Positions 17,425 through 62,195 of a DNA stretch of 64,000 nucleotides are shown here, one piece after another. This DNA comes from Ashinkailepas kermadecensis (taxonomy: Eukaryota; Arthropoda; Thecostraca; Neolepadidae), in assembly GCA_034440615.1 (NCBI GenBank), contig JAOTOM010004780.1, positions 400,854-464,853 on the forward strand, read 5' to 3'. The notes under the pieces are model-generated. The model searched no databases and had not been told where the DNA came from. It saw nothing but the letters and a program-made list of their open reading frames with translations. A program made the translations under genes and the position numbers. Each line of letters starts with the position of its first letter. The first letter of the stretch is position 1.

Positions 17425-17610
17425 TCTGCGGTGATGGAGCGCGGCAGCGGCGAGACGTCGCCGGGGCCGAAGCCGGAGCCGGAGCCGCGCCGCCTGGCGG
17501 TGTCGGACCGGGTGGTGTGGCGCAGCCCGCTCGGCACCCGCATCGGCACCGTCCGCTGGCTGGGGCAGCTGCCGCAGCTGGGCCACCCGCTCACCGCCGG
17601 CATTGAGCTG
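17425..17610 (+). CDS. CAP-Gly exon 1 (CYLD-like CAP-Gly domain, N-terminal half)
   Basis: The exon follows an acceptor GCCGCAG| (17422-17424) and ends at CTG|GTGAGTG (donor 17611), phase 0. Alternatively the ATG at 17434, in a good context (GTGATGG), is the start codon. After a Pro/Glu-rich leader the peptide is RVVWRSPLGTRIGTVRWLGQ and continues to HPLTAGIEL. This is the first half of a CAP-Gly domain; G-x-V/I-R-W-I/L-G-Q-x-P and A-G-I/L-E-L are the signature of the CYLD-type subgroup. CAP-Gly domains bind microtubule or EEY/F-like tails; in CYLD one of them binds NEMO. The next exon (22438) completes the domain in phase. The 3' end of the exon is copied into a tandem array (17594-18040). 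Confidence 0.75.
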
Positions 17611-18370
17611 GTGAGTGACGCCGGCACTGCACTGGTAGTGTCGCCGGTATGTGACTGCTGAGTACCGCCGGCATTGAGCTGGTGAGTGACGCCGGCACTG
17701 CACTGGTAGTGTCGCCGGTATGCGACTGCTGAGTACCGCCGGCATTGAGCTGGTGAGTGACGCCGGCACTGCACTGGTAGTGTCGCCGGTATGTGACTGC
17801 TGAGTACCGCCGGCATTGAGCTGGTGAGTGACGCCGGCACTGCACTGGTAGTGTCGCCGGTATGTGACTGCTGAGTACCGCCGGCATTGAGCTGGTGAGT
17901 GACGCCGGCACTGCACTGGTAGTGTCGCCGGTATGTGACTGCTGAGTACCGCCGGCATTGAGCTGGTGAGTGACGCCGGCACTGCACTGGTAGTGTCGCC
18001 GGTATGTGACTGCTGAGTACCGCCGGCATTGAGCTGGTGAGTACCGCCGGCACTGAACTGATAGTATTGCCGGTATTTGGCTGCTGAACCCTGTCAGTAT
18101 TGATGTGTGGTGAGTATTGCTGGTGTGTGGCTGCTGAGCATCTCCGGTATTGATCTGGTGAGTATTGCCGATATGTGGCTGCTGAGTACCGCCGCTATTG
18201 ATTTGGTGAGTATTGCCAGTATTTTGGTGCTGAGTAACACCGGCATTGAACTGGTGAGTATTGCCGGTATTGTGCTGGCACTTGCTACTGGTATTGGCCT
18301 GTTAAACATCGTCGGTATAGGGCTGGTGAGTACTGGCGATATTGAGGTGGTGAGTGCGACCACTACTGCC
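17611..18370 (+). repeat. 71-bp tandem array copying the exon end and donor splice site
   Basis: Each unit contains ACCGCCGGCATTGAGCTG|GTGAGTGA, meaning the last ~17 bases of the exon at 17425-17610 plus its donor, followed by ~46 bases of intron. Units begin at 17593, 17664, 17735, 17806, 17877, 17948 and 18019 (exact 71-bp period, nearly identical). From ~18040 to ~18370 the units are shorter and diverged (ATTGATCTGGTGAGTATTGC and similar). The first unit is the real exon end. Confidence 0.95.
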
Positions 18371-18759
18371 GATATCGGGCTAACCGTCTCGGATGATGGG
18401 TTTGGATTTGGGATATGAGATATGTGGGTGGTGCCCTGTGTTGGGAACATGTGTTGCATGAGGCATACTGACTGTCAAGCATGATATATGTTGTGTTTTT
18501 ATTGTATTTGCATCGTGCTTGCATAATGTGGTGCATAGTTTGCATGTTTTAATCTCGTTTTATTTCTTTCAGCTAACCAAATCATTTTATATTTGGCTGA
18601 TGTGACTTGGGGTCTAAGGAAAACTCAGTTCGTCTTAATCGGCATGTCAGCCATCAATGCTGTAAGCAATTGAGACTGCCGACATGCAGCTAGTGTTCCG
18701 AGTGACCTGCAACCACCGGCCCCTTGTATTAGTGGCGTTGGGCGATGGCCACTGGGTGG

Positions 18760-19165
18760 TGATGGTGTGTGGTGTTTGACGGTGGTCCCTGTGTGGCGTT
18801 GGGCAGTGGTCCCTGTCTGGTGTTGGACGGTGGTCCATATGTGGCGATGGTGTGTGGTGTCGGACGGTGGTCCGTGTGTAGTGTGGGACGGTGGTCCGTG
18901 TGGTGTGGGGCGGTGGTCCCCGTGTGTAGTGTGGGACGGTGGTCCGTGTGTGGTGTGGGGCGGTGGTCCGTGTGTGGTGTGGGGCGGTGGTCCGTGTGTG
19001 GTGTGGGGCGGTGGTCCGTGTGTGGTGTGGGGCGGTGGTCCGTGTGTGGTGTTGGGCGGCGGTGGTGTGTGGTGTGGGACGGTGGTCCGTGTGTGGTGTG
19101 GGGCGGTGGTCCGTGTGTGGTGTTGGGCGGCGGTGGTGTGTGGTGTGGGACGGTGGTCATCTGGC
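18760..19165. repeat. 24-bp GT-rich minisatellite
   Basis: The unit GGTGGTCCGTGTGTGGTGTG plus GGGC repeats about 14 times. 24 is a multiple of three, so all frames stay open on both strands; the predicted WSVCGVGR and HTDHRPTP peptides are artefacts. Confidence 0.93.
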
Positions 19166-21125: not shown

Positions 21126-21837
21126 CCATTAGATGTCAGACCCCCACCCCCATCCCCACCCCGCACCCGTCGCCGCGTTTGAAGACGGTGCGTGGTCCGT
21201 CCTGCAGAGGCGGTTACTGGTGCAGACGGACGTCGACAGCTGCCGTCTGCGGGAGCTCGCGAACACTGGGCGACAGCTGGAGGGGCGGCGGTGTGTGTGG
21301 GGGGAGGGGGGGGCAGGGTGTCTCGGGTAAGACTGATCAGCTGTGGCGGCCGAGTGTTCTCCGCGGGTGTTCATTGCAGGGTGTAATGCGTTGCGTGTTA
21401 TCACAGCGAAACTGCGAGCCGCCTGTCGACAGGGGCGTTGACAGCTGGTCAATGCCGTCGAGATGACGTCATTCTCCGATTGGAGGGCGCACGGCTGTTC
21501 CAAGTGACCGCATCTGAGCTGGCAAGAAACCAATGCGTTTCACCGCTTTCCATCAATACGTGGTTGAGTTCCAAACGGGGGTGACGTCTGAGTAATCTTC
21601 GACTTCGTGTATTTTAAAAGAAAGATTAAAATGCAACGTACATTTGTCATCTTGAATGATTCCCAGATAAACTGCTAATTGCCGACGCGATAAGTGATGA
21701 TGTGCTGTTGCAATCAATTCATGAGGCTGTTTTAAGCATGAAGGCAATAGCTACCTATCTCATTATTTCCACACAGTTTCACCTCATGCAAATGAAGCTG
21801 ACAGTGGGCGACGACGGCTACCCTGCGGCCGTGTGTC

Positions 21838-22437
21838 GTTTGACTGCCGTGTCACCGCTAACGGTCCCGGACGCGTCCTCTTTCGACAGGACTACGAGCT
21901 GCCGCGCGGCGGCACCGACGGCTGGCACGACGGCCGCTTCCTGTTATCTGTCGTCTGACTGCCGTGTCACCACTAACGGTCCCGGACGCGTCCTCTCTCG
22001 ACAGGACTACGAGCTGCCGCGCACCGACTGCTGGCACGACTGCCGCTTCCTGTTATCTGTCTCTGACTGCCGTAAGTCCCATCGGTCCCGGACGCGTCCT
22101 CTCTCGACAGGACTACGAGCTGCCCGCGGCGCCCGACGGCTGGCCACGGCCGCTTCCTGTTATCGGACTGCCGTACCACTAACGGTCCCGAACCCCCCCT
22201 CTCTACAGGAAAACACGCGCCCCCGCGGGGCCGCCCCGGCGGGGGGCACGACGGCCGCTTCCTGTTATCTGTTGTCTGACCGCCGTGTCACCGACTAACG
22301 GTCCCGGACGCGTCCTCTCTCGACAGGACTACGAGCCCCCGGCGGCCCCGACGGCCGGCAACAACCCCCCCTCCCTTTTTTTTTTTTTTGACTGCCGTGT
22401 CACCACTAACGGTCCCGGACGCGTCCTCTCTCGACAG
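21838..22437 (+). repeat. ~112-bp tandem array copying an acceptor and the start of CAP-Gly exon 2
   Basis: Units start TGACTGCCGTGTCACCACTA at about 21840, 21957, 22064, 22165, 22277 and 22389. They contain the pyrimidine tract, the acceptor TCGACAG| and then ~56 bases identical or close to the start of the real exon (GACTACGAGCTGCCGCGCGG...CTTCCTGTT). Only the last unit continues into a full exon. In the others the frame meets a stop soon after (FLLSVV*). Units around 22180-22385 have abnormal C and T homopolymers. Confidence 0.95.
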
Positions 22438-22588
22438 GACTACGAGCTGCCGCGCGGCGGCACCGACGGCTGGCACGACGGCCGCTTCCTGTTCCGGGCG
22501 CGCGCCAAGCACGGCCAGCTGGTGTCGGCCGAAGAGCTGGTGCTGGAGGACGAGTACTTTGGCCGGTCGGCGGCATCGGCGGCGGCAG
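22438..22588 (+). CDS. CAP-Gly exon 2 (C-terminal half of the domain)
   Basis: The acceptor is TCGACAG| and the donor GCAG|GTGGGG (22589). It enters in phase 0 and leaves in phase 1. The peptide DYELPRGGTDGWHDGRFLF continues with RARAKHGQLVSAEELVLEDEYF. It completes the CAP-Gly domain: the GKNDG loop of classical CAP-Gly proteins is replaced by GGTDG, close to the GCTDG of a CYLD CAP-Gly domain, followed by the usual G-R-F-L-F strand and the hydrophobic FV/LV end. Joined to exon 1 it gives ...TAGIEL|DYELPRGG.... The acceptor and first 56 bases are multiplied upstream. Confidence 0.8.
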
Positions 22589-22980: not shown

Positions 22981-23139
22981 GTTGGTTATTGGTTTTACGA
23001 CACGTCGACCGTTGAGTCATGTAGCGTCGCTAATCTCTCACGCCGATTGGTCGCGGGCGAAGAATAGCGACAGGTGAGACTCGAACCCACAACCTTTCGA
23101 TTGTGAGACGAGCATCTTACCCCTAGACCACTCGTCCCC
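22981..23139 (-). mobile_element. tRNA-derived SINE, full-length copy
   Basis: Same family as 8330-8488, reverse orientation. It is flanked by the perfect 13-bp duplication ACGTATGTTGCTG (22968-22980 and 23140-23152). Confidence 0.94.
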
Positions 23140-24039: not shown

Positions 24040-24315
24040 GGCGCACAGGTCATGACCTCGCCGACACTCCACCACTTGTGATATCAGCGCGGGACGCTGA
24101 TCTCTGACCCGCAGGTCACGACCTCCCGATCCCTCACCACCTGTGCTGTCTGTGCGGGACACTGATCTCTTGTAACCCCCAGGTCACGACCTCCCGATCC
24201 CTCACCACCTGTACTGTCTGTGCGGGACACTGATCTCTTGTAACCCCCAGGCCACGACCTCCCGATCCCTCACCACCTGTACCGTTGACGCGGGACGCTG
24301 ATCTCTGACCCGCAG
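24040..24315 (+). repeat. 67-bp tandem array copying an acceptor and the start of the next exon
   Basis: Four units start at CAG|GTCACGACCTCCCGATCCC (about 24113, 24182 and 24249, with a more diverged one at 24046). The fifth position is the real exon (CAG|GTCATCACCTGCCCGACCCC). The downstream ~50 bases of each unit align with the first ~50 bases of the exon (CTGTCGGCGCGGGAGCTGATC-like against CTGTCTGTGCGGGACACTGATC). Confidence 0.85.
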
Positions 24316-24539
24316 GTCATCACCTGCCCGACCCCGCGCCGCCGGCGCTGTCGGCGCGGGAGCTCATCGAGGACGCGCTGGCGCGCGTGGCCACCGAGCA
24401 GCGTGTGTTGCGGGCGCGCGCGCGCCAGCTGCCGCCGCCGGCCGTGTTCGGCACGCCTCTGACGATGCTGGAGCCGCCTTGGCGGGTGGTGGCGGCCGCT
24501 GCGGCCGCCGCTGCCGCCGCCACGGCGGCCGGACATCAG
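24316..24539 (+). CDS. Exon 3 of the CAP-Gly gene (helical and poly-Ala segment)
   Basis: The acceptor is CCGCAG| (24313-24315) and the donor CATCAG|GTGAGG (24540). It enters with two bases that complete the phase-1 codon left by the exon ending at 22588 (G|GT, Gly) and leaves in phase 0. The peptide is HHLPDPAPPALSARELIEDA followed by a basic/Leu-rich helix (RVATEQRVLRARARQL), a short PPPAVFGTPLTMLEPPW, and a run of about ten alanines. No known domain is recognised. The phase fit and coding-like GC3 support it as part of the CAP-Gly gene. Confidence 0.65.
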
Positions 24540-27751: not shown

Positions 27752-27811
27752 AGCCGCCCGCCGCCGACCGCCCACCTGCCACCTGGCGGCGACGTGACGC
27801 AACTGAAGCAG
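27752..27811 (+). CDS. Candidate small in-phase exon (20 codons)
   Basis: A segment after CACAGAG| and before CAG|GTGGGTG reads SRPPPTAHLPPGGDVTQLKQ. It is phase 0 at both ends, so it could follow the phase-0 exon ending at 24539. Alternative AG positions two bases away give a stop, so only one reading works. The support is phase and donor quality only; it could be chance in GC-rich sequence. Confidence 0.3.
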
Positions 27812-28174
27812 GTGGGTGACCTTGACCGGCGTGCTGCCGCCAGGCCGGCGGAGCTTAGCTGCGGTTAGCTGTGGATGTGGCGGTGGGGTCGGACAGGGGT
27901 GGTGTGGCTGAAGGGGATGGGGGTTGTGTGCGCCGGGCGACACGACGGTGTAACACGTGGGTGCAACCCGTTGAACACGTTGAAATTCGGCAGTGAAGGT
28001 GCAAAATGACAGGACAGGATGAGACAAATGCCTGCATCTTAATTTATAGTTGTATGCTTTTACTTCCAACTTCGATGGTCTGTTGCGCTCTCATTCCATT
28101 TTCTCTATGCATATTAGCTGAACATCGGCTGAATCCCTTTGCTTTCAGGTCCTTTATACTTTCTGAGTACGAAC

Positions 28175-28345
28175 TTTATGCTCTTTTACGACACATTCGA
28201 CTGTTAGGACATATAGCGTCGCCAACCTGTCACGTTGATTGGCTGCGGGTAGACTCGGTGATCCTATCGTTTGCGGGATTCGAGCACGCGATCGTGCGAT
28301 CAAGAGCCGAGCGCCGTACCGATCGAGCTACCGTGACATCCTTTC
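28175..28345 (-). mobile_element. SINE with the same body but a different tRNA head
   Basis: Read on the minus strand, the body (CCAATCAACGTGACAGGTTGGCGACGCTATATG) and the tail (GTCGTAAAAGAGC) match the other SINEs. The head is different, with A box TAGCTCGATCGGTACGGCGC and B box GTGCTCGAATCCC, closer to a Lys/Arg-type tRNA. CTTTCTGA occurs just beyond both ends and may be a decayed target-site duplication. Confidence 0.7.
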
Positions 28346-28619
28346 TGAACACTACTCGTCTCTGCAATTGTATTTCGCAGTCGTATTCACGCTAAGGTGT
28401 AAAGTTTATCGTTCAATCTGCAACATGTACGATGAATTTGAAGAATTTTGTTGGAATTTGATGCCGAATTGAAAATGAATTTGGGCAGTGTGGGTGGGCA
28501 GGGAGGATGCCGTCGTGACTAGGCAATGCGATTATTTTGCCTGCTGCGGTCAAGCTGGGTCGGACGGCGCCGGCTCGCTTGCTAGACTGCGGCTGAGGCG
28601 GAGCGCACTGAATCGGCAG

Positions 28620-28955
28620 CTGCCTCCGGCAAGACGCACGAGGTCGGCAGCTGCCTCCGGCGAGACGACACGAGGTCGGCATCTGCCTCCGGCTGTCTAT
28701 GTGGTGTTCGATATGCTTGTGGTGGCATGGTTAAAACAGGTGCGTTCGTGGCGGTGGGCGGCCCAGGCGACACGTCGGCAACAAAGTCCGTTACTACCAT
28801 GCCCAGTGTCGGCGCGGAGATCTGGAGCGGCGCACCTCCCGATCTCGCCAGCTGGATGCTCCGGGCGAAGGCCGGCAACAAAGTCCGTCACTACCATGCC
28901 CAGTGTCGGCGCGGAGATCTGGAGCGGCGCACCTCCCGATCTCGCCAGCTGGAGG
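28620..28955. repeat. Short duplications (24-bp repeats and a ~79-bp direct repeat)
   Basis: GGCAGCTGCCTCCGGC-type units lie at 28615-28695. An ~79-bp segment (AACAAAGTCCGTTACTACCA ... CTCGCCAGCTGGA) at 28779-28856 is repeated at 28877-28953. Confidence 0.85.
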
Positions 28956-29294
28956 CATGTGCGCTGTGTGCGTGCTGTTCAGGGTTCCGTCTTCCGCGTG
29001 TGCTAGCGAGCCGCCTGCACCGACGGCCGTTTTACGCGCCACGCGTCAAGTGTGCCGGGACCGTGGGGACGCGGCCGACCGCCGTCGAGGCCACTGCCAG
29101 CGGGTGCCGCACAGGTGTTGTGCCGGCGAGCGACACCGACTTTCCTCGTTCGCGCCACATGGTGCGCGTGTTGGCGCGGGAGTGTGCCGCCTCCGCGCCG
29201 CGCCGGGAGGCGAGCCTGCTGAGACTCGGACGGACTGTGCGACCGGGTGCGGTGAACAGTGGCGCAGTGTCAGACGGTCAGTGTATGCTCCTCT

Positions 29295-29605
29295 GCCAAC
29301 TCGCCGCCAACTCGCCGCCAACTCACTGCCAATTCACTGCCAACTCAGGGGACGAGTGGTCTAGGGGTAAGATGCTCGTCTCACAATCGAAAGGTTGTGG
29401 GTTCGAGTCTCACCTGTCGCTACTCTTCGCCCACGACCAATCGGCGTGAGAGATTGGCGACGCTACATGACTCAACGGTCGACGTGTCGTAAAACCAATA
29501 ACCAACCAACCACTGCCAACTCACTGCCAACTCACTGCCAACTCACTGCCAGCTCACTGCCAGCTCACTGCCAGCTCACTGCCAACTCACTGCCAACCCA
29601 CTGGC
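29295..29605. repeat. 11-bp minisatellite (AACTCACTGCC) interrupted by a SINE
   Basis: The array of CACTGCCAACTCACTGCCAA resumes unchanged after the SINE at 29347-29510, so the SINE inserted into an existing array. Confidence 0.9.
29347..29508 (+). mobile_element. tRNA-derived SINE copy within a minisatellite
   Basis: Full-length member of the 8330 family (head GGGGACGAGTGGTCTAGGGG, B box GGTTCGAGTCTCACC, AACC tail). It is flanked by ACTGCCAACTCA on both sides; this fits a target-site duplication, but the array repeats make it ambiguous. Confidence 0.9.
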
Positions 29606-30334
29606 ACGATCGGATCCTCCAGGCAACTTGCAAGCTTCCCGGTCTTTTCATATCCAACCTGTGACCTTTCGTCGGATGTTTATCTCAACGTCTGGCTGTT
29701 GAACCGCGGAGCAGAAGACAGCCCCAGCTGACTTTTCCCGGCACGTGAAGAGCTAAAGAGGATGCAGAATTAGGATCAAAAGCCGGATGTATATCCCATG
29801 CGCCGTACAACCAATGCAGCTGACATACATTCAGACTCAAATAACTGGACGCCGGTAGTTTTGCGGTGGACCTGATGGTATCTGAGAGCGAAGTCCTGGG
29901 GTTTGATTTGCGCCAGCTGGTTTTTGTCGCTACAGTTGAGCGTGAGAAGACAGTGGCGCGATTTCGCGTATGCAGCCAAGTGTGTGGGAAGTAAACCCTT
30001 CTAGCCCGACTAAGCATCCAATCCGGCTTTGTCCCATGCCTGTCAGTGGCTTTGCATCGTTTACACATCCCTTCCAACATTAATACCTCGAGCAGGTCGA
30101 CGCTGAACCACACGGAGGCTGCCATCAGTCATGTTGGCGTCCACCACCTGCCGACCACCTCTTCCACTTGTTACGGAGCTGAGCCCGTGGCCCCCGGTGT
30201 CGGGCCGGCTTCGGTTCCGGTCTCAGTCTCAATTTCAGTCTCAATAATCGGGCAGCCTGCTAGTCCGGCATTGTCTCAATAATTCAGGGGCGGTTCTGCC
30301 TTCCTCCTGCTACTCTGACTGCGGAACATCAGTC

Positions 30335-30770: not shown

Positions 30771-31034
30771 AGGCGCCACCGCCACACACGTGACCTGACC
30801 TGACGTGTCACTGGTGGCTGCTGACTGGGGATGGCGATGTTTGTTGTAGTCGGCCCCGGTGTGTGGGTCAGGCAGTGCGTCCACCAGTGGCGCTGTCTGC
30901 GGCTGTCTGCGTGACGGGTGGATGACGAACGGGTGTCGCGTTTTAGGGCAAGCAGTGTGTCCCATCATAGGCAGGCAGCGTGATCGGTCATCGAGCTGTC
31001 AATTGATCCGTCGTGGAGCAGGCGGTGTGGCTCG

Positions 31035-45945: not shown

Positions 45946-48900
45946 GCCGATGAAGCGCCACAAGCAGAGCCGCCGCGCGCTCCGAAGTCGCCGGTGCGCA
46001 GCCAGCGCGTGAGGAGTCCACCGCCGGCAGGCAGCACGGCCACCATGCCGGCGGCCGGCCTGGCGGCTGCAGCGCCGACCGCCGAGGCGGCGCCGGCATC
46101 GCAGCGCGGCCTGTTCTCCCTGCTGCGGCTGTTCCGGCGGCGGCGCTCGCTGTCGGCCGAGCGGCGCCGCTGTCAGACCAGCTCGCCGCCGCCCAGCCGG
46201 CCGGCGCGCGCCTCCAGCGAGGACCGCACGCTCGTCGGCCGGCCCCGCAAGCGCGCCGCGCCGCCGCCGCCGCCGCCGCGGTCGCTGGCGCCGCCCGGCC
46301 GGCCGGCGCGAGGCACCGACCACGTGCGCCACGTGCGCGGCAAGCGGCGCGCGCCGGCGCCGCCGCCGAGTGCCGGCCAGTTCGGCAGTCTGCAGGCGCC
46401 GACGCGCGCCGAGCAGCTGTCGGCTGAGTCGGCGCGCAGTCTGGACCGGCCGGCCAGCCGGCAGACGGACACCCTGGTGCTGGAGGACGGCGTGCTGATA
46501 CCGCGCCGCGGCCGCTCGCCCGAGCCGGGCCGCGTCGAGGCGCGCTCCGTCACACTGGGCCGGCTGGCCGCCGCCGCCGGGCCGCGCTTCTGGTACAAGC
46601 GCAAGAAGCCGGTCCAGGCGCGCGCCGTCGAGCCGAGGGAGCGGCGCGGCCGGCGAGAGCGGCGCAGCCACGCCGCCGCCGAGCCGGACGGCGAGCTAGA
46701 CTGGCTGGCCGACATGGTGTACGCGCGTCAGAGCGTGGCGCCGCCCGACGGCACCGTGGAGCGGCGCCTGCACGTGCTGCGCCACCTCGCCGACCAGGAG
46801 GAGCGTGTGGAGCCGCCGCCGCCTCCACCGCCACCGCAGCCACAGCAACAACCACAGCCACAACCACGACCACAGTCACAACCACAGCCACAAACACAGC
46901 CACAGACACAGCCGAAGTCACAGCCGAAGTCACAGCAACAGTCGGAGCCGCAGCCACCACTGCCCGTCAAACACCGCAGTCCTCTGCGCAGCCTCTTCGG
47001 TCGCGACCGGTCGCCGCGGCAGGCAGCGCGGCAGGCGGCGCGGCCGCGCTTCTCGATGCTGGCCAGCATCAGCGCGCTGGACGCCGAGGCGGCGCGCCTG
47101 ATAGAGGACAGGGCCACCGACCAGGCGGCGACCCTGCCATCACACAGTCAGCTGGGTGCGGCGGCAGCGGCCCTGCCGCCGGCCACGCCGCCGACCGCTA
47201 GGCCGCACGCCGAGCAGGAGAAGGAACGGCAGCAGACGTGTCAGATGATCGCGCTTCTGGTCCGAGAGAAGTTCGAGGACGGCCCAGGTGAGGCCAGAGG
47301 CAGGGTGGAGGCGCTGGGAGAGCGGACTGCCGGCAAAAGCAACTCTGGTTGCGACCCTTCTCATGATGATGCGGCAGGTGTGACGAAGAAAGATGACGCC
47401 AAGTCTACACCGGGTGGCATGTCCCGCAATGGCACTGAGGCCTCTGCGAAGGCGAGCGCTTCCGCCGTCCCGGTGGTCGTCGACACCTGTGATGCTAAGG
47501 GCAGCTCAAAGCCGACTGAGTCGCGTGCGGTCGTGCGGAAACCCAGCTACCCGGCAGAGAGGAACCCTTTTGAGGAGGCGGCGGGCGCAAATCCGTTCGA
47601 CGAAGATGCGAGCGCCGCCGGCGTTCCCATCGTTGGCCACTATGATAACGTGGTCGCCGCAAGCTCGTCTACTAATCCGTTCGACGAAGCGTACCCGGAC
47701 GAGATGAATCCGTTCTGTGAGGACGACGAGTCGAAGACAGCGTGCGGACCGCCACCGACGTCGTCAGGGAAGGCGAACATGGCGACACCGCCTGGTGAAC
47801 ACCGTGCAGCAGGCATTACTTGCACCGCGAAGGAGACTGTACCGCCGCAAAACTCGCCGTGTGTTGGCAGGTCGAGCCGGGCGAAGGCGCCCGACGGGCG
47901 TGGTGCCCATGCGGAGCGGTCGCCCGAGCAGCGGCAGCGTGTGCCGCGCAGCCCAACACCGCGCGCCAGCGCTCCCGCCACCAGCCCGCCACCGCAGGAG
48001 CGGCGCGCCGACCACGCGACACGCCCGGCGGCCGACCAGAAGGGCGGCGACATACCCACCCTGGTGCGCGAGCTCCACCAGTTCCTCGACACGACCGTGC
48101 AGACGATGAGCTCGCCGGGCTGCCAGCGGCGCGCGCTGGGCGGCGGCCGCGGCTGCGCCGACCTGGCCGCCGGCTGGACATGCGGCCGCTGCACGCTCGT
48201 CAACGTGGCCGCGCTGTCGACGTGTCAGGCGTGCGGGGGCCGCAGGTCGGGCGTCGACCGGGGCGCGGAGATGCGCCGCTGCCTCGGCGACGGCCCGCCG
48301 CAGCCCTCGCAGCGCTGCGAGAGTCTCGGCATCGTGCAGGGTGGTGTGGCGCGCCGGGTGGCCGCCTGGCCGGCCGCCGACGCCACCCGCTCACTCAGCA
48401 GGGACGGCGGCGCGGCTGCGCGGCCACCGCCGCTGCGGCGCGCCGGCCACCACAGCCTGGAGCTGGCCGACGACGCGGCCGACCGGCCGGAACAGACGCC
48501 GCAGAAGCTGGCCGGAGATGGCCAACGGGCTGTGGCGGGGAGAGGCGTGGGCGAGGAGGTGGCGCTGGCTGCGGCCGCGACGGCTGGGCCCGGCGGACCG
48601 GCCGGGGACCGGACTGAGTGGAGAGAGGGAGTCGCGGCGAAGGAGCAGCGCGGCGCCGCGGAACCGAAGCCCGCCCCGGCGGGCTCGAATCGCAGCCTTG
48701 GCGGACATGACCAGCCCGGGGATCCGGAGTTGCCGCTCGAGCCGAGAGTCAGGAAGCAGCCGGAAGCAGGGCCGGCGTCCGAGGCTGGTGTCAGGAAGCG
48801 GCCCGCGCTTCCGTCGACATTCGTGGCGCAGCTGCTGCAGAAGGAGTCGTCGGCGACGGCGCCCGTCGCTGCTCCGCCCGACCGCGACACACCCGATGTG

Positions 48901-49600
48901 GACGAGGTGCGGCGCGCCCGCCTCGCCTTCTTCGCGCAGCGCGCGGAGCCGCGCGGCACGGACGAGTCGCGCGCGCGCGACGTCGACGAGCGCCGCTCCA
49001 GCTCGGCCTCGCCGTCGGCCGGCTCGCCGACGGACGCCGACGACGCGGACGACGAGAGCGAGTCGGACTCGTCGGCGTCGGCGTCGGCGTCGGCGCGCGG
49101 CCGCGAGCCGCCGCCGACGCCGGCGGCGCGGCCCGCCGAGCCGGCCGCGCCGCTGCCCGCCATCAAGGAGGCGTCGCCGTCCGAGTACCTGGAGGAGGCG
49201 GCGAGCGGGCCGGCGCGGCCGTCGCCCGACCACGAGTACGAGGAGGTGGAGGTGGCGGCGCGGCCGTGGAAGCTCAGCCCGGCCGAGAAGGCGCGCCGGC
49301 GGCCGGCGCCGGCCGGCTCGCCGCAGTGGCGCGGCGACGCGCTGCTCGTGCCGGACGGCTGCGGCGGCCGCGTGCGCTGCGTCGTACAGCGGGAGCCGGC
49401 CGCGCCGCAGTACGTGATCCGCGGCGGCGTGCTCTACAGCCAGCTGCCGACGCCGGCGGCCGTGCAGAGCCGCGCCGAGCCGCCGCCGCCGCACGGCGCC
49501 ACCTGCAATGGCCACCGCCCGCCGCCCGCCGACGCAGAGGGCGCCACCGGCGAGCGCCCGCGGCTGCGCTCGCTTCCAGGCCAGCTGGAGTCGGACCAAG
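45946..49600 (+). CDS. RBCK1: Large exon: basic/Pro-rich N-terminal region, NPF motifs and NZF zinc finger
   Basis: The acceptor is GGTTCCAG| (phase 0) and the donor CCAAG|GTTAGT (phase 1), leaving 1,218 codons. No start codon with context is needed, because the acceptor frame ADEAPQAEPPRAPKSP is open. Features in order: Arg-rich segments (RLFRRRRSLSAERRR); a possible conserved block ELDWLADMVYARQS; a PQ-repeat stretch; four NPF tripeptides in about 60 residues (ERNPFEE, GANPFDED, STNPFDEA, EMNPFCED; 47560-47720), the ligand of EH domains; and an NZF finger at about 48175-48245 reading GWTCGRCTLVN...CQAC. The NZF has the W-x-C-x2-C-T-x2-N-x6-C-x2-C pattern that binds ubiquitin, the type HOIL-1 uses for linear chains. 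The tail is Ser/Asp/Glu-rich (DDADDESESDSS) and ends LPGQLESDQ|G. GC3 is extremely high. Confidence 0.85.
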
Positions 49601-50649: not shown

Positions 50650-51537
50650 GGGCTACCGCCCCGCCCCGCCCCGCCCCGCCCCGCCCCGTCCCGTCCCGTC
50701 CCGTCCCGTCCCGCCCCGTCCCGTCCCCCGTCCCGTCCCGTCCCGTCCCGTCCCGTCCCGTCCCGTCCGTCCCGTCCCGTCCGTCCGTCCCGTCCCGTCC
50801 CGTCCGTCCGTCCGTCCGTCCGTCCCGTCCCGTCCGTCCGTCCCGTCCCGTCCCCGTCCCGTCCCGTCCCGTCCCGTCCGTCCCGTCCCGTCCCGTCCTC
50901 CCGTCCCGTCCGTCCACTCCCGTCCCGTCCACTCCCGTCCGTCCCACTCCCGTCCGTCCCACTCCCGTCCCGTCCCACTCCCGTCCGTCCCACTCCGTCC
51001 GTCCCACTCCCGTCCCGTCCCACTCCCGTCCCGTCCCACTCCGTCCGTCCCACTCCCGTCCGTCCCACTCCGTCCCGTCCCACTCCTCCCCGCCCACTCC
51101 GTCCCGTCCCACTCCCGTCCGTCCCACTCCCGTCCCGTCCCACTCCCGTCCCGTCCCACTCCCGTCCCGTCCCATCCCGTCCTGTCCCACCCGTCCCGTC
51201 CCACTCCGTCCCGTCCCACTCCGTCCCGTCCCACTCCCGTCCCGTCCACTCCGTCCGTCCCACCCGTCCCGTCCCACTCCCGTCCCGTCCCACTCCCGTC
51301 CCGTCCACTCCGTCCCGTCCCACTCCCGTCCGTCCCACTCCCGTCCCGTCCCGTCCCGTCCCGTCCCGTCCCGTCCCGTCCGTCCCGTCCCCGTCCCGTC
51401 CCGTCCCGTCCCGTCCCGTCCGTCCCGTCCGTCCGTCCCGTCCCGTCCCGTCCCGTCCCGTCCCGTCCCGTCCCGTCCCGTCCCGTCCCGTCCCGTCCCG
51501 TCCCGTCCCGCCCCGTCCCGCCCCGCCCCGCCCCGCT
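50650..51537. repeat. (CCGTC)n / CCACTCCCGTC microsatellite array
   Basis: About 890 bases consisting almost only of C, G and T on the plus strand, in pentamers CCGTC with variants CCGTCCGTCC, CCACTCCCGTCC and CCGCCC. Long PSRPVPSRP and GTGRDGTGR ORFs in several frames are artefacts. It ends 56 bases before the exon at 51594. Confidence 0.98.
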
Positions 51538-51593: not shown

Positions 51594-51723
51594 GCTGTTC
51601 GGACCTGATGGCGGAGCTTCAGCGCGCCATCGACAGAGGGCAGCACAAGGAGGCGGCCGTGTTGGCGCGTAAACTGGCCGCCCTCAAGGCGGAGAAGAGT
51701 CGCCTGGTGACGGCTACAGTCAC
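51594..51723 (+). CDS. RBCK1: Exon for the LUBAC-tethering-like motif
   Basis: The acceptor is TCGACAG| and the donor GTCAC|GTGAGT. It enters needing one base (from the exon ending at 49600, G|GC) and leaves in phase 2. The peptide is CSDLMAELQRAIDRGQHKEA then AVLARKLAALKAEKSRLVTATV. It aligns with the N-terminal helix of HOIL-1 (acidic, L-x-R-A-x-x-x-G-D/Q ... A ... A ... L), the tethering motif that pairs with SHARPIN and supports HOIP binding, directly before the UBL. In human HOIL-1 this motif is the N-terminus; here at least 1,200 residues precede it. Confidence 0.75.
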
Positions 51724-52203: not shown

Positions 52204-52297
52204 CGTCAACCTGCACGTGGAGGACGGCACGTGCCACGTCGGCCCGATCCCGCTCCAGCTGTCGCCGCTGATGGCCGTGCACGAGCTGAAGGCGCTG
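52204..52297 (+). CDS. RBCK1: UBL exon 1 (first half of the ubiquitin-like domain)
   Basis: The acceptor is CACGTTGCAG| and the donor GCGCTG|GTGAGA. One base completes the phase-2 codon and the exon ends in phase 0. The peptide is VNLHVEDGTCHVGPIPLQLS followed by PLMAVHELKAL. It matches the first beta hairpin and helix start of the HOIL-1 UBL (V-x-V-E-D-x-x-x-H-x-x-x-I-x-L-x-V-x-P-x-M-x-V-x-x-L-K). In HOIL-1 this UBL binds the UBA of HOIP. Confidence 0.85.
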
Positions 52298-53482: not shown

Positions 53483-53630
53483 ATCGAGCGTGACTACCGA
53501 CTGCCGACGTCGTGTCAGCACTGGACCATAGCCGGCGAGATGGTGGCGCCCTCCCGCCAGCACAAGAGTCTGGCCGAGAGCGGTGTCACAGACGGGTCGG
53601 CTGTGTTCCTCTACTTGGAGACGGCTTCAG
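53483..53630 (+). CDS. RBCK1: UBL exon 2 (second half of the ubiquitin-like domain)
   Basis: I chose the acceptor CCGTCAG| (53480-53482) because it gives the same 15-residue spacing between the LK of the helix and the W that HOIL-1 has. An upstream CTTCAG| (phase 0 too) would add five residues. The donor is TTCAG|GTCAGT, leaving phase 1. The peptide IERDYRLPTSCQHWTIAGEM continues VAPSRQHKSLAESGVTDGSA and VFLYLETAS, matching D-Y-G-F-P-x-x-x-Q-x-W-x-I-G ... L-x-x-x-G-V ... A-Y-L-Y-L-L of HOIL-1. The last ~20 bases and donor are repeated downstream. Confidence 0.85.
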
Positions 53631-54260
53631 GTCAGTCCCGTGTGGTGCGGTGTGGTGTGAGCTGATGTGGTGTGGCTCCCCTACTTGGAGACGCTCTCAG
53701 ATCAGTCCCGTGTAGTGTGATGTGACCTGAACTGATGTGATGTAGCTCCTCTACCTGGAGACGCCCTCGGAGCAGTCTCGTGTGGTGTGATGGGACCTGA
53801 ACTGGTGTGGTGTGGCTCCTCTACCTGGAGACGCCCTCAGGTCAGTCTCGTGTGGTGTGATGGGACCTGAACTGATGTGGTGTAGCTCCTCTACCTGGAG
53901 ACGCCCCCAGGTCAGTCTCGTGTGGTGTGATGGGACCTGAACTGGTGTGGTGTAGCTCCTCCACCTGGAGACGCCCTCAGGTCAGTCTCGTGTGGTGTGA
54001 TGGGACCTGAACTGATGCGGTGTGGCTCCTCTACCTGGAGACGCCCTCAGGTCAGTCTCGTGTGATGCGGTGTGACCTGAGCTGGTGTGGTGTGGCTCCC
54101 CTACCTGGATACGCCCATAGGTCAGTCCTGTGTGGTGTGATGTGATGTGACCTGAGCTGATGTGTGGCTCCTCTACCTGGAGATAGCCTCATGTCAGTCC
54201 TGTGTGATGCGATGTGACTTAAGCTAATGTGGTGCGATTGCTGTCTGTGAGCAACCTCAG
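53612..54260 (+). repeat. 70-bp tandem array copying the UBL exon end and donor
   Basis: Each unit holds CTCCTCTACCTGGAGACGCC + CTCAG|GTCAGTCTCG, a copy of the exon end CCTCTACTTGGAGACGGCTTCAG|GTCAGTCCCG, then GTGTGGTGTGATGGGACCTGAACTGATGTGGTGT. About eight units follow the real exon end with a 70-bp period (for example 53821, 53891, 53961). The last units, near 54100-54250, are more diverged. Confidence 0.95.
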
Positions 54261-55238
54261 GTCAGCGTGATGTGATCCTACCTGACGTAACCTGACCTGA
54301 CCTGACCTAACTCGGTGGCGCTGTCTGGTCAGTGTGGTGCAATCTTGCCCAGCCTGATGAGTCCTGACCTGACCTGATCTGGTATGGCGTGGTTTCTCTA
54401 TCTATTGGTGTCTTCTGGTGCGTGCAATGCGAATTTGTCACCTGGCCTACACAATATGTACGGCCTGCAACTTCGTACCAGATCGACACCAACAGACCAT
54501 TGCATCGAAAGCGTTGCCGTCAACACGACGAAATCGATGCAGTCGTTCTGACAATACACATCAACAGCTCAATACGTACAAATGGCACAACCATTTGGTC
54601 AGGCTGTAGAGGGATTGTGTCGTGGTGTACGGAAGGATGCAGCAATTCCACCTACGGCGGCAAAATGTTACAGCTGCTGCCAAGTTTTAACCCGACATCG
54701 AAACAACCACCAGGATGTTTCTATTGCGTGCTCAGCGATGTCAGCAGAAGCTGATCAGTCGAACGACCTGTCTCGGTACACATTTGCTTCTTTGGAATAG
54801 CCCAGCATTTAATCACCGGCAAACATGGCAACTCTTGCGAAGTGTGTCAGACGCGATCACCAGTACAACTTTTGCGAAGGCAGTGAAGGCGAATACGGGC
54901 ATTATCCGAACAATTTCGGATGCTCATGGTCTGGAGCCGAAGTCATTTTATGGATGGTCGGAATCGTTCATTAGGTAGGCGTTCTTCTGAACTGTTTATG
55001 TGTATACGCGGAGTAGAAATTCGCTGTCCTTATATAGCTAATGAAGTCGATGAGCCCTAAAGCTTGCTTTCCCGATAATTTTATCCATGCCTGTATGTAG
55101 CATGGCATGCTACGGATTGTGTGACTGCTAAATGATGTGGAGTGATGTGCGTTGGTAGAACCTGCCGGCTGATTCGGCGGTCGTCGGCAGGTGGCACCGG
55201 AGCCAAGTGTCCGCCCGGACCTGCCGTGTCACCCACAG
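54261..55238. other. Intron, no gene seen
   Basis: Unique sequence between the donor array and the repeat-rich exon at 55239. Confidence 0.5.
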
Positions 55239-55818
55239 CCTTCCTCCGGCCGGGGAGTTCGCCTGCCGTCCGACTGGCCGATCCCGAGCCGCCCTCCGCC
55301 GCCGGCAGACTGGCCGGTCCCCAGCCGCCCTCGGCCGCCGCTAGACTGGCCGGTCCCGAGCCGCCCTCCGCCGCCGGCAGACTGGCCGGTCCCCAGCCGC
55401 CCTCGGCCGCCGCTAGACTGGCGGGTCCCGAGCCGCCCTCGGCCGCCGCTAGACTGGCCGGTCCCCAGCCGCCCTCCGCCGCCGGCAGACTGGCCAGTCC
55501 CCAGCCACCCTCGGCCGCAACGCCGACGGCCCGGGGCGATGCCGCTCGACTGACGCGCACCCCCAGCGGAGAGGAGTTCCACGACGCGACCGACCGGCAC
55601 CCGCCGCCGGCACCGGGCCCCGAGCGCGGCTCACCGAGCCACCAGGGCGTGCCGCCCGGCCGCCAGGCGGCGGTGAAGGGCGTGACGGGCGCCGACAGCG
55701 CCACCTGCGCGAGTGCAGCGCCGCCTGGCGGGCGCGGTGCGAGACTGCGGCGCTGTGACGCCGGTTTGGGGAGCGGGGACCCGCCGCGGGCCGCCCACGC
55801 ACGGCCTGGCCTCGAAGT
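55239..55818 (+). CDS. RBCK1: Low-complexity exon with 12-residue repeats
   Basis: The acceptor is TCACCCACAG| and the donor GAAGT|GTGAGT, a strong site. It enters with two bases completing the phase-1 codon (G|CC) and leaves in phase 2. The first half holds seven to eight copies of a 36-bp unit (RLAGPQPPSAAA / RLAGPEPPSAAG). The second half is TRTPSGEEFHDATDRHPPPA and Pro/Gly-rich sequence. In HOIL-1 the corresponding position holds the NZF finger; no Cys pairs of that type are present here. The function is unknown, and it may be an unstructured linker. Confidence 0.65.
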
Positions 55819-56647
55819 GTGAGTATGAAGTGCGCTGGACCGGCGTGATGTGCACTCGTCTGCAGGTGTTTACTAATAAAAGCATGACCTCTGGATGTAG
55901 TTTCTACGACGATTAACAGGCTATCGACCACCTTCCGTTATTCCGGTAGAGGTGAACACACCGCATCCCGCTCAAAACCGGCTACATGTTGGGGATAGTC
56001 GACGAAAGCCAACAACCGTTTTGGAAATTGCATACGTCAAGCGGCCGACCAAGGCAATGCCAACAATGCTGCAGACTCCTCGCCGATCTTAGTGCGGCTG
56101 ATGACGTGTCTGAGTGTGACGTCACCGTCAGAAGGTCACCGCTAACGATGGCCATGCCTCCAGGCCGCCGCCGCTACCAGCCAAGCGGCGCCACCTGGAC
56201 GCAATGACGTCATCAGACTACGCCTCGAGAGCGGAGGCGACTGCGAATGGCATGACCGGATTAATAGCAGGTCCGTTCTTGAGATGTTTGATGAATGCGA
56301 TGTCGTGAGTATGGGCGTGAAGACAACATTCAGATACGATGTTCATGTGTTTTCAGGCATTAATAATTGAGCATATCACACTCTCATTCAGCCGAATTTC
56401 ACATACAATGGAAGACAAGCGATATGTTTGTTATTCGGTTGTTTATTATGTGTATCGTCATACAGGCTGTGACGTACAGCTGCGATATTTCCTTTTCGCT
56501 TAGTGGATTTGACAGTGGCTGATCAAACTCTCAGCACTCTTCACTTTGGCAGACCACTGAAACATTCTTTCTTCCAGAGTTCGACACTGCTAACTCTCGT
56601 GTCAACGGATTCATGCATACTCTGGCTGATCCGGAGCCCTCTCCAAG
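55819..56647. other. Intron, no gene seen
   Basis: Unique, AT-richer intron. No exon-edge array. Confidence 0.5.
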
Positions 56648-59425
56648 CCTACAAGCGCAGGGCTCGTCCAGCGGCACGTGGGGCTGCTCTGGTGAAACTC
56701 CGAGCTCGTCCGGCGGCGTGTCGGGCTGCTCTGGTGAAGCCCCCAGCTCGTCCGGCGGCCTGTCGGGCTGCTCCGGTGAAGCTCCCAGCTCGTCCGGCGG
56801 CCTGTCGGGCTGCTCTGGTGAAGCTCCCAGCTCGTCCGGCGGCCTGTCGGGCTGCTCTGGTGAAGCTCCCAGCTCGTCCGGCGGCCTGTCTGGCTATTCT
56901 GGTGAAGCTCCCAGCTCGTCCGGCGGCCTGTCGGGCTGCTCTGGTGAAGCTCCCAGCTCGTCCGGCGGCCTGTCGGGCTGCTCTGGTGAAGCTCCCAGCT
57001 CGTCCGGCGGCCTGTCGGGCTGCTCTGGTGAAGCTCCCAGCTCGTCCGGCGGCGCCCGACTCTCACCAACGGCGGCGAGGGCGTCGCAGCACCGTCTGTC
57101 CGGCTGCTCGCCGCCGCCGCCGCCGCCGCCGCTGCCGGCCAAGCTGCGCCTGCCGTCGCCGGGCCTGGTGCGCCGTAACGCGGCGCCCACGCCGGCGGAT
57201 TCCAGCGCCGCCGCATCGTCTCCGTGTCGCGGGGCGGCGAACGGCCCGGGTTCCGCTCGTCACGCGAAGCCGACGGCCGGGCGGACTGAGGCGACTTCGA
57301 CCGGGCCCGATTTCGAGTATGCAGCGGCGCCCGCCGCCGCGCGAGAAGACGATCCGACACCGCCTGCCGCGGGGGCAGCGGTCGAACCTGTGCCCCGTCT
57401 GGCCGGCGTGGCGGCGGCGACCGGGCCGATCCCGACTGCCGCGCCGGTCGCTGCGGCCGTCCCGACCGGTGATGACCTCAGCAGTGGCGTCACGACTGCT
57501 GGCGGGGAGCCGGCCGTGCGGCGGGGCGCCGAGGCGCTGACTGAGGCCGGGACAGAGCCGGGCGAGGTGCTGTCCAGTTCTGGCAGCTCTCTGGGAGACA
57601 CCCGAGGGACGGCGCCGATCTCTTGTACTGTCGCCGTCTCCGGCCTCAAACCCGCAGCTGAAGACACACCGGGTACCAGTCCTGCGCCGTCTGGTACACC
57701 CGCTGTTGTACCCTCTGCTGCACGCTCTTCTGTACCCTCTTCTGTACCCTCTTATATGCCCACATCTGTAACCCTGTCTGCACCCGTCTCTGTATGCTCT
57801 GATTTCCCCGCTGGTGTATCTCCTGTTGTACCCTCTGTTGTCCCAGCTGGTGCGACCGCTGCCTCTTCCTCCGCTCAGCTGCCAAGATCTCCGGCGCCAC
57901 ACGTGACTCCCAGCCGCGGAGCTCCGCCCGGTCTGTCTGGAGAGCCACGCTGCGGTGTGCCACCGACCGCAGCGGGCCAGACGACCACATCAGGGGCCTG
58001 TGGCGCTCCCCTGACGAGCTCACTGGCCCGCGATCGTGCCTCCGCAGCGGCCGTCGCTCCAACTCGCCCCGTGGCTGTCACACCGGCCGCTGTCAAGGTC
58101 ACACCGGCCGCTGTCAAGGTCACGTCCGCCGCTGTCAAGGTCACGCCCGCCGCTGTCAAGGTCACGTCCACCGCTGTCAAGGTCTCAGCGGCCTCTGTCA
58201 GGGCCGCTAGACATGCGGGTCAAGCGGCTGCCTCTGCAGGGGCGAAGAGTACCATGTCCAGTGCTGTGCTTGGAGGCCAGTTGTCGCCCGTCGTTGGGGA
58301 CGATAAGGCGTTACCTGCGTCTGAGGTATCGGGGCCACCGTCCAGAGGAATGTCGAATGCCGCCGCTACAACAGTCACTGCCACACCTTTCAAGGGATTC
58401 AACGGGACCATATCGAGTGTGATCTCTCCGCCGGGGAAGGTTGCCGCTGCCGCTGCCACTGCCACTGCCAAGGCCACTGTCTCTCCGGGCCATGTGTCTG
58501 GTGCTGTGACCAAAGTCGTAGCCTCTGTCGGTGCGGTGGTTGCATCCACGTGCAACACCGCCGCAAACACTGCAGCTCCTGCGATAAGGGCTGCCTCCAC
58601 GAATAGAGTGGCGTCGACTGCTTCAAAGATTCCTACGGCATCGGCAGCAGCTAAGGCGGCCGCTGCCTCGGGCAGGGCAAATGGTGCAGTGTCCAAGACA
58701 GCCAGCACGACGACCAAGCTCGCCAGTTCACCCGCCAAGTCGGTCGTAGCAGCAGGCAAGTCCGCCGCGCAGATCTCAAGAGCTTCAGCTCCGACCAAGG
58801 CCACCGGCGCTGCCAAGACGTTTCCCACTGCCGTGTCGTCGACCTCCAGGGTCTTTCCCGCCACGATAAGTTCGGTAAGACCGACCGCCGGCTTCCGGCC
58901 GACCGCCAAATCACCAACGTCTGCCCAGCCGGCGGGCAAGGCATCGCCGACTCTCCCGAAGACTGCCAAAGCGTCCACGAGCACGCAGCCGCTCCCGACC
59001 GGAACACCGGCCGCCTCCAGAGCGGCTGCTGCGACTCCTGCTGCGGCGGTGGCCTCGGCCCCGGCCGCCGCCGCCACACCGCCGCGAACTCGACCGGCGT
59101 CGGCGGTCGTCTCCGCCCCGGCCGCCGCCGCCACGCCGCCGCGGACTCGACCGGCGTCGGCGGTCGCGCGCCGCCGCTCATCGGGCACCGCCGTCCAGGA
59201 GAAGGTGGCACTGTTCTCTGGCACTGGCGCCAGCACTGGCGCCGGCACTGGCGCCGGCGCCGGCGGCCGTCGGTCGGAGCCGGCCGCCAACTACGCCGCC
59301 CACCTGGAGGCCATGCGACAGCAGCTGGTGCCCAACAGCGAGCCGTTCGAGTGCGTCGTCTGCATGTCGGACGTGCTGCCGGACGTGGGCGTGGTGCTGC
59401 GGGAGTGTCTGCACATGTTCTGCAG
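56648..59425 (+). CDS. RBCK1: Large low-complexity exon ending in the first half of RING1
   Basis: The best acceptor is CTCTCCAAG| at 56647, which supplies the one base needed after the phase-2 donor. GCGCAG| at 56660 is an alternative only if the donor phase differs. The donor TGCAG|GTGAGA leaves phase 2. The 925 codons begin with nine 14-residue repeats (GCSGEAPSSSGGLS), pass through Pro, Ala, Ser, Thr and Val-rich sequence (KVTPAAV repeats at ~58080-58190; alanine-rich 58430-58790), and end with ECVVCMSDVLPDVGVVLREC then LHMFCR. This is the N-terminal half of HOIL-1 RING1: C-x2-C ... V-V-L-R-E-C-L-H-x-F-C-R, almost identical to the vertebrate protein. The Zn ligands Cys, Cys, Cys, His and Cys are present. 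Confidence 0.85.
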
Positions 59426-61008
59426 GTGAGACGCGCAGCGACGTGCTGTCCTTCGCCGCGCTTTGATTTTAAAGCATAACGTGCCATTGTGTGGTTAGTA
59501 TAGTACGTGTTTGCTGTCACACTATACTTTATTTGGTAATGTTACGCAGCATGTTCATTAGTATTACACGAGTAATCCTTGGATGCCATTGGATATCTCC
59601 CAAAATGTTCTGGGTTGATGAGATGCACATGCATGTTGTTTTGTGTTATTTATTGAAGGAGCATCGTACCGCCATTATTGGTTTGAGCTCCACAATGATT
59701 CCGTGGCCCTTGCAATGTTAAGTAAAGCGCAGACGGGACCTCCCAATACCCTAATTCAACACAATTCGCATTATTTTTCTTAATTAAGCGCATGTGTAAT
59801 GTTCCCCACCTCTCTCCCAATCGTTTTCGTAAAACGGTACTCATGGAGATGCCCACGATAAGGTCTGTTCGATAATGCGTGCTTCTGCTCGCGGACTTGT
59901 CTGTTTTATTTTGTTGGGGTCAGTTCATCCATCCAACCTTTTCCTCCATGTTCCACTCTGCCACCCCGGCACTCCATCCTAATCCGAAGCGTGAATTGCT
60001 GACTGTATGTAGACATAGCACACCGTTTTTCTCATGCTGCATTATATCGCTTTTAAAGGGCTCAGACTTGGAAAGAAAAGTAGAGCGTCCAAAGGAAGAA
60101 AAGCGTGACCAGTTCGGGTATTCATTGTAGCCTACGAATGCTTACCAGTGGGCAGTTCTTGTGCGTGGACATGCAATTAAAATAAGTCAGTTTAGAAATG
60201 AGGTCATTGTGTGCATCATGTTTTCTCTACAGCCCACCTGAATGCATGCCATCATGGAAGTAATGCAGTTCGATATGCAATTATTTGCTTGGTGTAGACC
60301 CCCAAGTTTCGCCCCAAAATTGAATTCTTCCACAAATGACTAGTGTGGCAGTGACGCAGCCGGAGGGTCTTATGGTTCGTGGGACATCAGCCATTTTGTC
60401 TGTCGGCCAGACAGGGGCACTCCTTTCTGGTGGGAAAGGAGTGCCCTTTCCGTTCCCTCCTTTCCCACACTCCTTCCTGGTGGGAGAGCCATTAGTAGGA
60501 AGACCCCAGAAGGAACTCCGTACCTTCATATGCCTTCGATTATTGTGCCACCAAAGCTCCAAATATGTTCATACACTCATACATACCCACTACATATACA
60601 CACCCTGGAGCATTGTCCTGGTGATAATTTACCCTGATTTACCTTCTTTCAGAATGCGTATTGATAAAAGCTTGCATATGGTGGGGACGAAGGTTGTTGG
60701 TGACACTGCAGCTATTATCTAGTCTGCGGAGCTGCCACTCCGACCCCTGCCCTCTCCATAGCCGTTTATTTCATGTCTTAGAGAAGCCAACACGAGGAAG
60801 TTCTACCCCTCGCCCAGGAATAAATAACCCACCACTCGCAATGCAGCCAATCCGGATGTCTGTCGACGGCGGCCACCGAGCCGCCCGGGGCGAGACGGAA
60901 TCGACCCCACCGCTCAGTAGGGGTGGATTGAAACTGGCCAATTAAGACACGCGTCACCCCGCCCAATCAGTCACTGAAATTTCTGCCGCAGTTGAGTGAT
61001 GGTTTGGT
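59426..61008. other. Intron, no gene seen
   Basis: First 1.6 kb of the RING1 intron. Unique sequence including a hairpin-like pair GGAAAGGAGTGCCC / GGGGCACTCCTTTC at ~60415-60450. No coding exon. Confidence 0.5.
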
Positions 61009-62083
61009 GCGTCTCACTGCACTCGGCGTTGCGAGGAGTGTCTGTCGGGAACGGTGGAGCACTGCGACACACAATTCCTGCCGCAGTTGTGTGATTGTTT
61101 GGTGCGTCTGACTACAGGGAGTGTCTGGCGGGAACGGTGGAGCACTGCGACACACAATTCCTGCCGCAGTTGTGTGATAGTCTGGTGAGTCTGACTACAG
61201 GGAGTGTCTGGCGGGCACGGTGGAGCACTGCGACACACAATTCCTGCCGCAGTTGTGCGATTGTTTGGTGCGTCTGACTACGGGGAGTGTCTGGCGGACA
61301 CGGTGGAGCACTGCGACACAACATTCCTGCCGCAGTTGTGTGATTGTTTGGTGCGTCTGACTACAGGGAGTGTCTGGCGGGCACGGTGGGGCACTGCGAC
61401 ACACAATTCATGCCGCAGTTGTGTGATTGTTTGGTGGGTTTTACTACAGAGAAGGTTTTGGGGGGACTGCGACACAACATTCATGCCGCAGTTGGGTGAT
61501 TGTTTGATGCGTCTGACTACAGGAGTGTCTGGCGGGCACGGTGGAGCACTGCGACACACAATTCCTGCCGCAGTTGTGCGATTGTTTGGTGCGTCTGACT
61601 ACGGGAGTGTCTGGCGGGCACGGTGGAGCACGCGACACAACATTCTGCCGCAGTTGTGTCATTGTCTGGTGCGTCTGACTGCGGGGAGTGTCTGGCGGGC
61701 ACGGTGGAGCACTGCGACACACATTCCTGCCGCAGTTGTGTGGTTGTCTGGTGCGTCTGACTACAGGGAGTGTCTGGCGGGAACGGTGGAGCACTGCGAC
61801 ACACAATTCCTGCCGCAGTTGTGTGATAGTCTGGTGAGTCTGACTACAGGGAGTGTCTGGCGGGCACGGTGGAGCACTGCGACACAACATTCCTGCCGCA
61901 GTTGGGTGATTGTTTGATGCGTCTGACTACAGGGAGTGTCTGGCGGGCACGGTGAGGCACTGCGAAACAGTTGTGTGATAGTCTGGTGGTCTGACTACAG
62001 GGAGTGTCTGGCGGGCACGGTGGAGCACTGCGACACAACATTCATGCCGCAGTTGTGTGATTGTTTGGTGCGTCTGACTACAG
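61009..62083 (+). repeat. ~84-bp tandem array copying the RING1 acceptor and exon start
   Basis: About 12-13 units. Each contains GCGTCTGACTACAG|GGAGTG + TCTGGCGGGCACGGTGGAGC + ACTGCGACACA, the acceptor and the first ~37 bases of the real exon at 62084, followed by ~47 bases (CAATTCCTGCCGCAGTTGTG...). In a few units the acceptor AG is changed to CG (TACGGG). Typical period 83-85 bp. Confidence 0.97.
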
Positions 62084-62195
62084 GGAGTGTCTGGCGGGCA
62101 CGGTGGGGCACTGCGACACTGCCGAAGTCAAGTGTCCCTACATGAACTCCGAATACAGCTGCCAGAGCAACATCCAGGAGATCGAGATCAAGGCG
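62084..62195 (+). CDS. RBCK1: Exon for the second half of RING1
   Basis: The acceptor is GACTACAG| and the donor AAGGCG|GTGAGA, leaving phase 0. The first G completes the Arg codon AG|G from 59425, giving HMFCR|ECLAGTVGHCDTAEVK and then CPYMNSEYSCQSNIQEIEIK. It follows HOIL-1 closely (R-E-C-L-x-G-T ... E-V-x-C-P-F/Y ... Y-S-C ... E-I-K-A). The remaining Zn ligands of RING1 are here. Of ~13 similar acceptors upstream, only this one is followed by sequence that continues the RING. Confidence 0.93.

Follow-up and report, generated by a model that had tools for sequence, protein, structure and literature searches.

A predicted gene of the barnacle Ashinkailepas kermadecensis carries five tandem arrays whose repeat units span exon-intron junctions, and these arrays are probably minisatellites of the type named mirages in amphioxus, that is, founded on a junction, spliced out with the intron and neutral to the host. 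The gene lies on the forward strand of a 64,000-nucleotide stretch (assembly GCA_034440615.1, contig JAOTOM010004780.1, positions 400,854 to 464,853), which is referred to here as the window and from the first letter of which all positions are counted. In Pfam, the predicted protein reached the cut-off for RING and for CAP-Gly (2.8e-10), and it had matches below the cut-off to ubiquitin, LUBAC-tethering (LTM) and RanBP2-type zinc finger. From its domain order and general knowledge, the host gene is presumably a LUBEL/HOIL-1-like ubiquitin ligase.

Junction-spanning arrays and their decoy splice sites

The arrays are found at two donors (17611 and 53631) and at three acceptors (exon starts 22438, 24316 and 62084), and thus at both the 5' and the 3' ends of introns; intron 1 bears one at each end (arrays A and B, Table 1). 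A first-pass annotation made from the sequence letters had pointed to these five arrays in one gene, and they were borne out by Tandem Repeats Finder (TRF) together with the exon model. The unit length ranges across the arrays from 68 to 118 bp, the unit of array A being internally composed of about three sub-units of 24 bp. The exon part per array measures 18-56 bases, for which 17-56 had been given earlier. As every array holds such a stretch of exon, the description of the arrays as starting exactly at the exon edge was overstated, although the junction-spanning units it relied on are real. Similarly, the true splice site does occupy the terminal unit, as had been proposed, but this adds no further regularity. 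Rather, whenever a unit spans the junction and its copies lie in the intron, the terminal unit is bound to hold the true site. The terminal position is therefore a matter of geometry, and the property said to be shared by the five arrays reduces to a founding duplication having crossed the junction.

The five units are mutually unrelated. All ten pairwise comparisons fell within the range of shuffled sequences (200 shuffles for each pair, of which 17-186 scored equal or better), and the arrays are not one mobile repeat, as had been claimed. Three weaker donor copies of array A past 18087 (18158, 18254 and 18326) are not part of the unit alignments, and neither are a final weak copy of array D, at about 54261, and a damaged array E unit, at about 61450. 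Where the expected unit sequence should stand, arrays B (22199-22400) and E (61438-61475) have runs of C, T and G that, by eye, resemble base-calling errors.

The junctions are set by a model of 12 exons (17434-62195, + strand), which is consistent in phase and gives 2,778 codons free of stops when joined; the exons between 27812 and 45945 are left out of it. The 3' half of the gene matches a 2,387-residue protein of the acorn barnacle Amphibalanus amphitrite, with an identity of 80% over 86 residues in the RING part. Protein homology crosses three of the five array-bearing junctions. The alignment with a thrips protein runs across the join of exons 1 and 2 (donor 17611 and acceptor 22438), and both the Amphibalanus and the thrips proteins cross the join between the RING exon and the last exon (acceptor 62084). 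The Amphibalanus alignment also crosses the joins from the large exon through to exon UBL2 and the join of exons X1 and X2. In the ubiquitin-like part, both alignments end at codon 1542, four codons short of donor 53631. The join of exons 2 and 3, and hence acceptor 24316, was set by reading phase alone, and a dedicated search of proteins, scored on exons 1-4, gave no homolog for the exon 3 region.

The additional copies of the splice sites, termed decoys, mostly keep their splice dinucleotide. GT or AG is retained in 29 of the 35 aligned decoy units (6/6 in array A, 5/5 in B, 4/4 in C, 6/8 in D and 8/12 in E). Read-through past the true donor meets an in-frame stop after 49 bases in array A and after 33 bases in array D, in both cases ahead of the first decoy donor. 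Likewise, 15 of the 17 acceptor decoys examined lead to a stop within the repeat and one to a stop within the exon, and one is open; for array E, this analysis covered the 8 of 12 decoys that fit a strict acceptor pattern. A stop intervenes ahead of the first decoy at each of the two donors, and all but one of the 17 acceptor decoys lead to one, which leaves the earlier proposal that selection keeps the decoys as splice sites unsupported.

Each array probably began with a short tandem duplication having one break in the exon and the other in the intron, by which the splice junction was copied. Slippage or unequal exchange may later have multiplied the unit, so that the copies ended up in the intron. 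The copy attached to the remaining exon would stay in use in normal splicing, and the other copies would leave with the intron. The use of a decoy would, in nearly all of the cases examined, introduce a stop codon into the message, and the transcript would then be lost or truncated. Since decoy use would bring stops, the arrays appear to be tolerated and not selected for.

Array placement and competing explanations

The whole locus is rich in minisatellites. TRF gave 136 rows in the window, from which 46 non-redundant arrays in the gene (period at least 10) were kept after rows with a period below 10 and overlapping rows were dropped. They make up 29% of the intron bases, 17% of the exon bases and 27% of the gene. 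The period is divisible by 3 in all ten wholly exonic arrays. The junction arrays have periods of 71, 68, 70 and 83, none of them a multiple of 3, and array B has uneven spacings (98-118) of which one, 111, is divisible. As the exonic periods are all multiples of 3 and the junction periods mostly are not, the junction arrays resemble the intron. The possible sixth case noted earlier, the 39-bp array at 37675-38354 (+), can be read without a stop in more than one frame; its period is a multiple of 3. Regarding age, the TRF match percentages, judged by eye, gave no clear difference by which the junction arrays would be younger than the others.

The placement tests excluded the ten wholly exonic arrays and took 111 and 83 as basic units in place of the 216 and 166 of TRF. 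Two sets were used, one of 36 non-exonic arrays over the whole gene and the other of the 12 located where the exon model is complete, with 27812-45945 and its 24 arrays outside. The arrays cover 5 of 23 junctions, whereas the random placement of whole arrays predicts 4.8 with 36 arrays (P 0.52) or 3.3 with 12 arrays (P 0.25). Coverage of the junctions is near expectation for arrays that fill such a share of the intron and the gene, and hence junctions are no richer in arrays than the locus. A junction lying in a partial terminal unit needs a founding unit that crosses it, and the random placement of units is therefore regarded here as the proper null for origin.

Several results, under this null and among the decoys, weigh against the arrays being simply neutral, mirage-type minisatellites. 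Random unit placement, with wholly exonic placements barred and at least 10 bases required on each side of the junction, expects 0.50 spanning arrays among the 12, and none of 5000 simulations reached the 5 seen; with the 36 arrays over the whole gene the expectation is 0.77 (P 0.001). When 1 base on each side was sufficient, 0.69 were expected among the 12 (P 0.0002). The comparison with random placement that had been called for thus has two outcomes in this gene, the units exceeding the expectation (5 against 0.5-0.8) but the whole-array coverage not. Neutrality may have to be supplemented by some bias of origin or of retention at exon edges, and the excess of spanning units is suggestive, being a post hoc count in one gene of a pattern picked for being striking. 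Among the decoys, the acceptor at 22327 stays open, and its use would add 37 codons. Stops are common in random sequence, and those in the arrays display a consequence of decoy use and not selection. As to a boundary copy set apart from the homogenised inner copies, as described for amphioxus globins, the arrays give a mixed picture, the mean identity of true to decoy units being below that of decoys to one another in arrays C and D, and above it in A, B and E.

A tentative explanation, compatible with the arrays being neutral and mirage-type, is that tandem duplications arise more often at exon edges than elsewhere, the edges being mutational hot spots, for example at R-loops, nucleosome borders or microhomology around proto-splice sites. 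It would account for the 5 of 12 non-exonic arrays in complete-model regions that span a junction. In array E, the sequence TGCCGCAGT within the unit is similar, by eye, to TGCCGAAGT in the exon following the unit, as microhomology-driven duplication predicts. However, this argument is post hoc and drawn from a single gene, and the coverage of 5 of 23 junctions by whole arrays is not above either expectation. Crowding of arrays near exons is likewise unsupported, with 2 of 8 non-spanning arrays (seven and the 5-bp array described below) at most 100 bp from an exon against 0.9 expected (P 0.22), and the two visible junctions of a nested minus-strand gene bear no spanning array.

It is improbable that the decoys are kept by selection for the regulation of splicing, whether through unproductive splicing or alternative isoforms. 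The retained dinucleotides and the precedent of human IFI6, as outlined in PMC4526556, would suit this explanation, but recent copies would retain their sites regardless. Moreover, nearly all decoys examined lead to stops, the unit lengths except that of array B are not multiples of 3, GT is gone in 2 of the 8 decoys of array D, and AG is absent from 4 of the 12 in array E. Slightly less probable still is that some or all arrays are artefacts of assembly or base calling. The homopolymer-like stretches of arrays B and E do resemble read errors by eye, but the units differ by substitutions and artefacts would not respect the divisibility by 3 seen in all ten exonic arrays. The copy number could still be wrong.

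Features of the host gene and its surroundings

The exons of the model and the five arrays are listed in Table 1. The Amphibalanus amphitrite homolog carries the public name 'mucin-17-like' despite RING and ubiquitin-like parts as in a LUBEL/HOIL-1-like ligase; its record begins within the large exon (45946-49600) and is without the CAP-Gly part.

Table 1. Exons of the host gene and junction-spanning arrays, with positions in the window
Feature	Position	Strand	Details and evidence
Exon 1 (start ATG, first half of CAP-Gly)	17434..17610	+	donor GTGAGT at 17611; thrips homolog across exons 1 and 2; Pfam CAP_GLY 2.8e-10
Array A, exon 1 donor	17593..18087	+	71-bp units, 7.0 copies, 18 exon bases (TRF, unit alignment)
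Array B, exon 2 acceptor	21834..22493	+	6 units, splice-site copies spaced 98-118 bp, 56 exon bases; TRF period 216
Exon 2 (second half of CAP-Gly)	22438..22588	+	phase and homology
Array C, exon 3 acceptor	24046..24361	+	about 68-bp units, 4.7 copies, about 46 exon bases (from TRF end)
Exon 3	24316..24539	+	phase only
Exon 4	27752..27811	+	phase only
Large exon, RanBP2-type zinc finger match below Pfam cut-off	45946..49600	+	edges without spanning array
Exon with LTM match below Pfam cut-off	51594..51723	+	Pfam, homology
Exon UBL1, first part of ubiquitin-like domain	52204..52297	+	phase, homology
Exon UBL2	53483..53630	+	donor GTCAGT at 53631; homology stops four codons before donor
Array D, UBL2 donor	53607..54234	+	70-bp units, 8.9 copies, 24 exon bases
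Exon X1, holds in-frame 36/108-bp coding array	55191..55818	+	phase, homology, TRF
Exon X2	56164..56270	+	phase, homology
Large exon ending at RING start, with in-frame coding arrays	56578..59425	+	phase, Pfam, homology
Array E, last-exon acceptor	61035..62119	+	83-bp units, 13 aligned, 36 exon bases; TRF also gives 166
Last exon, continues RING	62084..62195	+	phase, Pfam, homology

Coding minisatellites of the gene include those at 55260-55518, 56662-57053, 58086-58200 and 59044-59175, from which protein length variants would be expected. An array of nearly 900 bases with a 5-bp unit of CCGTC type (50656-51535) ends 58 bases upstream of an exon. Upstream of exon 1, the array at 16698-17410 was rejected as a spanning case, as 14 bases separate its end from a possible acceptor ending at 17424.

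The nested gene lies in a host intron on the minus strand (33094-34400), with its first donor at 34256. Its best match is LOC119114796 of the goose barnacle Pollicipes pollicipes, with an identity of 67% in the search and 71% in the alignment, and its relatives, the Pollicipes pollicipes protein and two further proteins, have 183-222 residues. No Pfam family matched it at E 0.1. The Pollicipes match and that of the host gene to Amphibalanus amphitrite point to a barnacle as the source of the window, and their identity levels suggest a species other than these two. The 16-bp array at 33934-34219 was considered as a spanning case for this gene and rejected, the donor at 34256, placed by alignment to the relatives, being 37 bases away. 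Five tRNA-like matches of 36.0-36.5 bits also occur in the window (8338-8398, 15979-16039, 23072-23132, 29355-29415 and 44557-44617). Those at 23072, 29355 and 44557 share, by eye, a longer repeat, which suggests a tRNA-derived short interspersed nuclear element (SINE) family.

Significance and comparison with known systems

The arrays extend a little-known structure, which the listed matches showed in lancelets with looser parallels in human genes, to a second animal phylum and at an unusually high density, and they indicate that a single gene is able to hold five of them. They raise the countable question of whether exon edges are hot spots for tandem duplication. Conceivably, where animal genomes are rich in minisatellites, in lancelets as in barnacles, founding duplications arise preferentially at exon edges and junctions are multiplied several-fold above random seeding; we hold this with reserve, and if true, it would amount to a general bias at exon borders, mutational or of retention, that has so far gone uncounted. 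The arrays are also natural material for how the splicing machinery chooses among near-identical junctions, and for the model of intron gain proposed from mirages. A study on intron gain by tandem genomic duplication (PMC4974935) reportedly describes a duplication that copies splice signals; the barnacle arrays, in contrast, extend existing introns.

Parallels are available from human genes. The minisatellite of IFI6 (6-16) contains several splice donors (Turri, 1995, as cited in PMC4526556). It is likewise a tandem array repeating a splice donor, but according to that secondary account the repeat donors make several mRNAs, whereas the decoy donors of arrays A and D lie past in-frame stops. 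Human segmental duplications have internal tandem repeats at exon-intron boundaries, with 27 intron modifications (PMC2812944). These share with the barnacle arrays the expansion of minisatellites at boundaries; the difference, going by what is summarised there, is that they are tied to novel introns and alternative splicing. Among the matches listed from open-licence literature, there was no report of such arrays beyond lancelets and human genes.

The closest counterparts are those of amphioxus, and the statement of the first-pass annotation that no named element or process produces such arrays was wrong, because mirages were already known (PMC3087553, PMC3902484). Ebner et al. (2010) described amphioxus globin genes with tandem repeats across exon-intron boundaries, both 5' and 3', and named them 'mirages' (PMC3087553). 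The units given there are about 150-160 bp in the globins and 10-72 bp in Adh3. The Adh3 data together with reverse transcription PCR in amphioxus suggest that regular splicing is undisturbed, and a role in intron gain has been proposed (PMC3087553). In the mirage of BflGb6, the boundary copy is reported to be excluded from the homogenisation of the inner copies. Mirages of TnC and PGBD5 have also been described, Canestro et al. (2002) being cited for Adh (PMC3902484). The barnacle arrays have the structural features of mirages, namely a unit spanning the junction, occurrence at both intron ends, AG or GT mostly kept and varied unit length. As far as these accounts describe them, the amphioxus mirages (Adh3, the globins BflGb6 and BflGb9, TnC and PGBD5) are similarly boundary-spanning minisatellites at both ends with varied units, many of them with AG or GT. 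They differ from the present case in that the host here is a barnacle and in that five such arrays stand in one gene.

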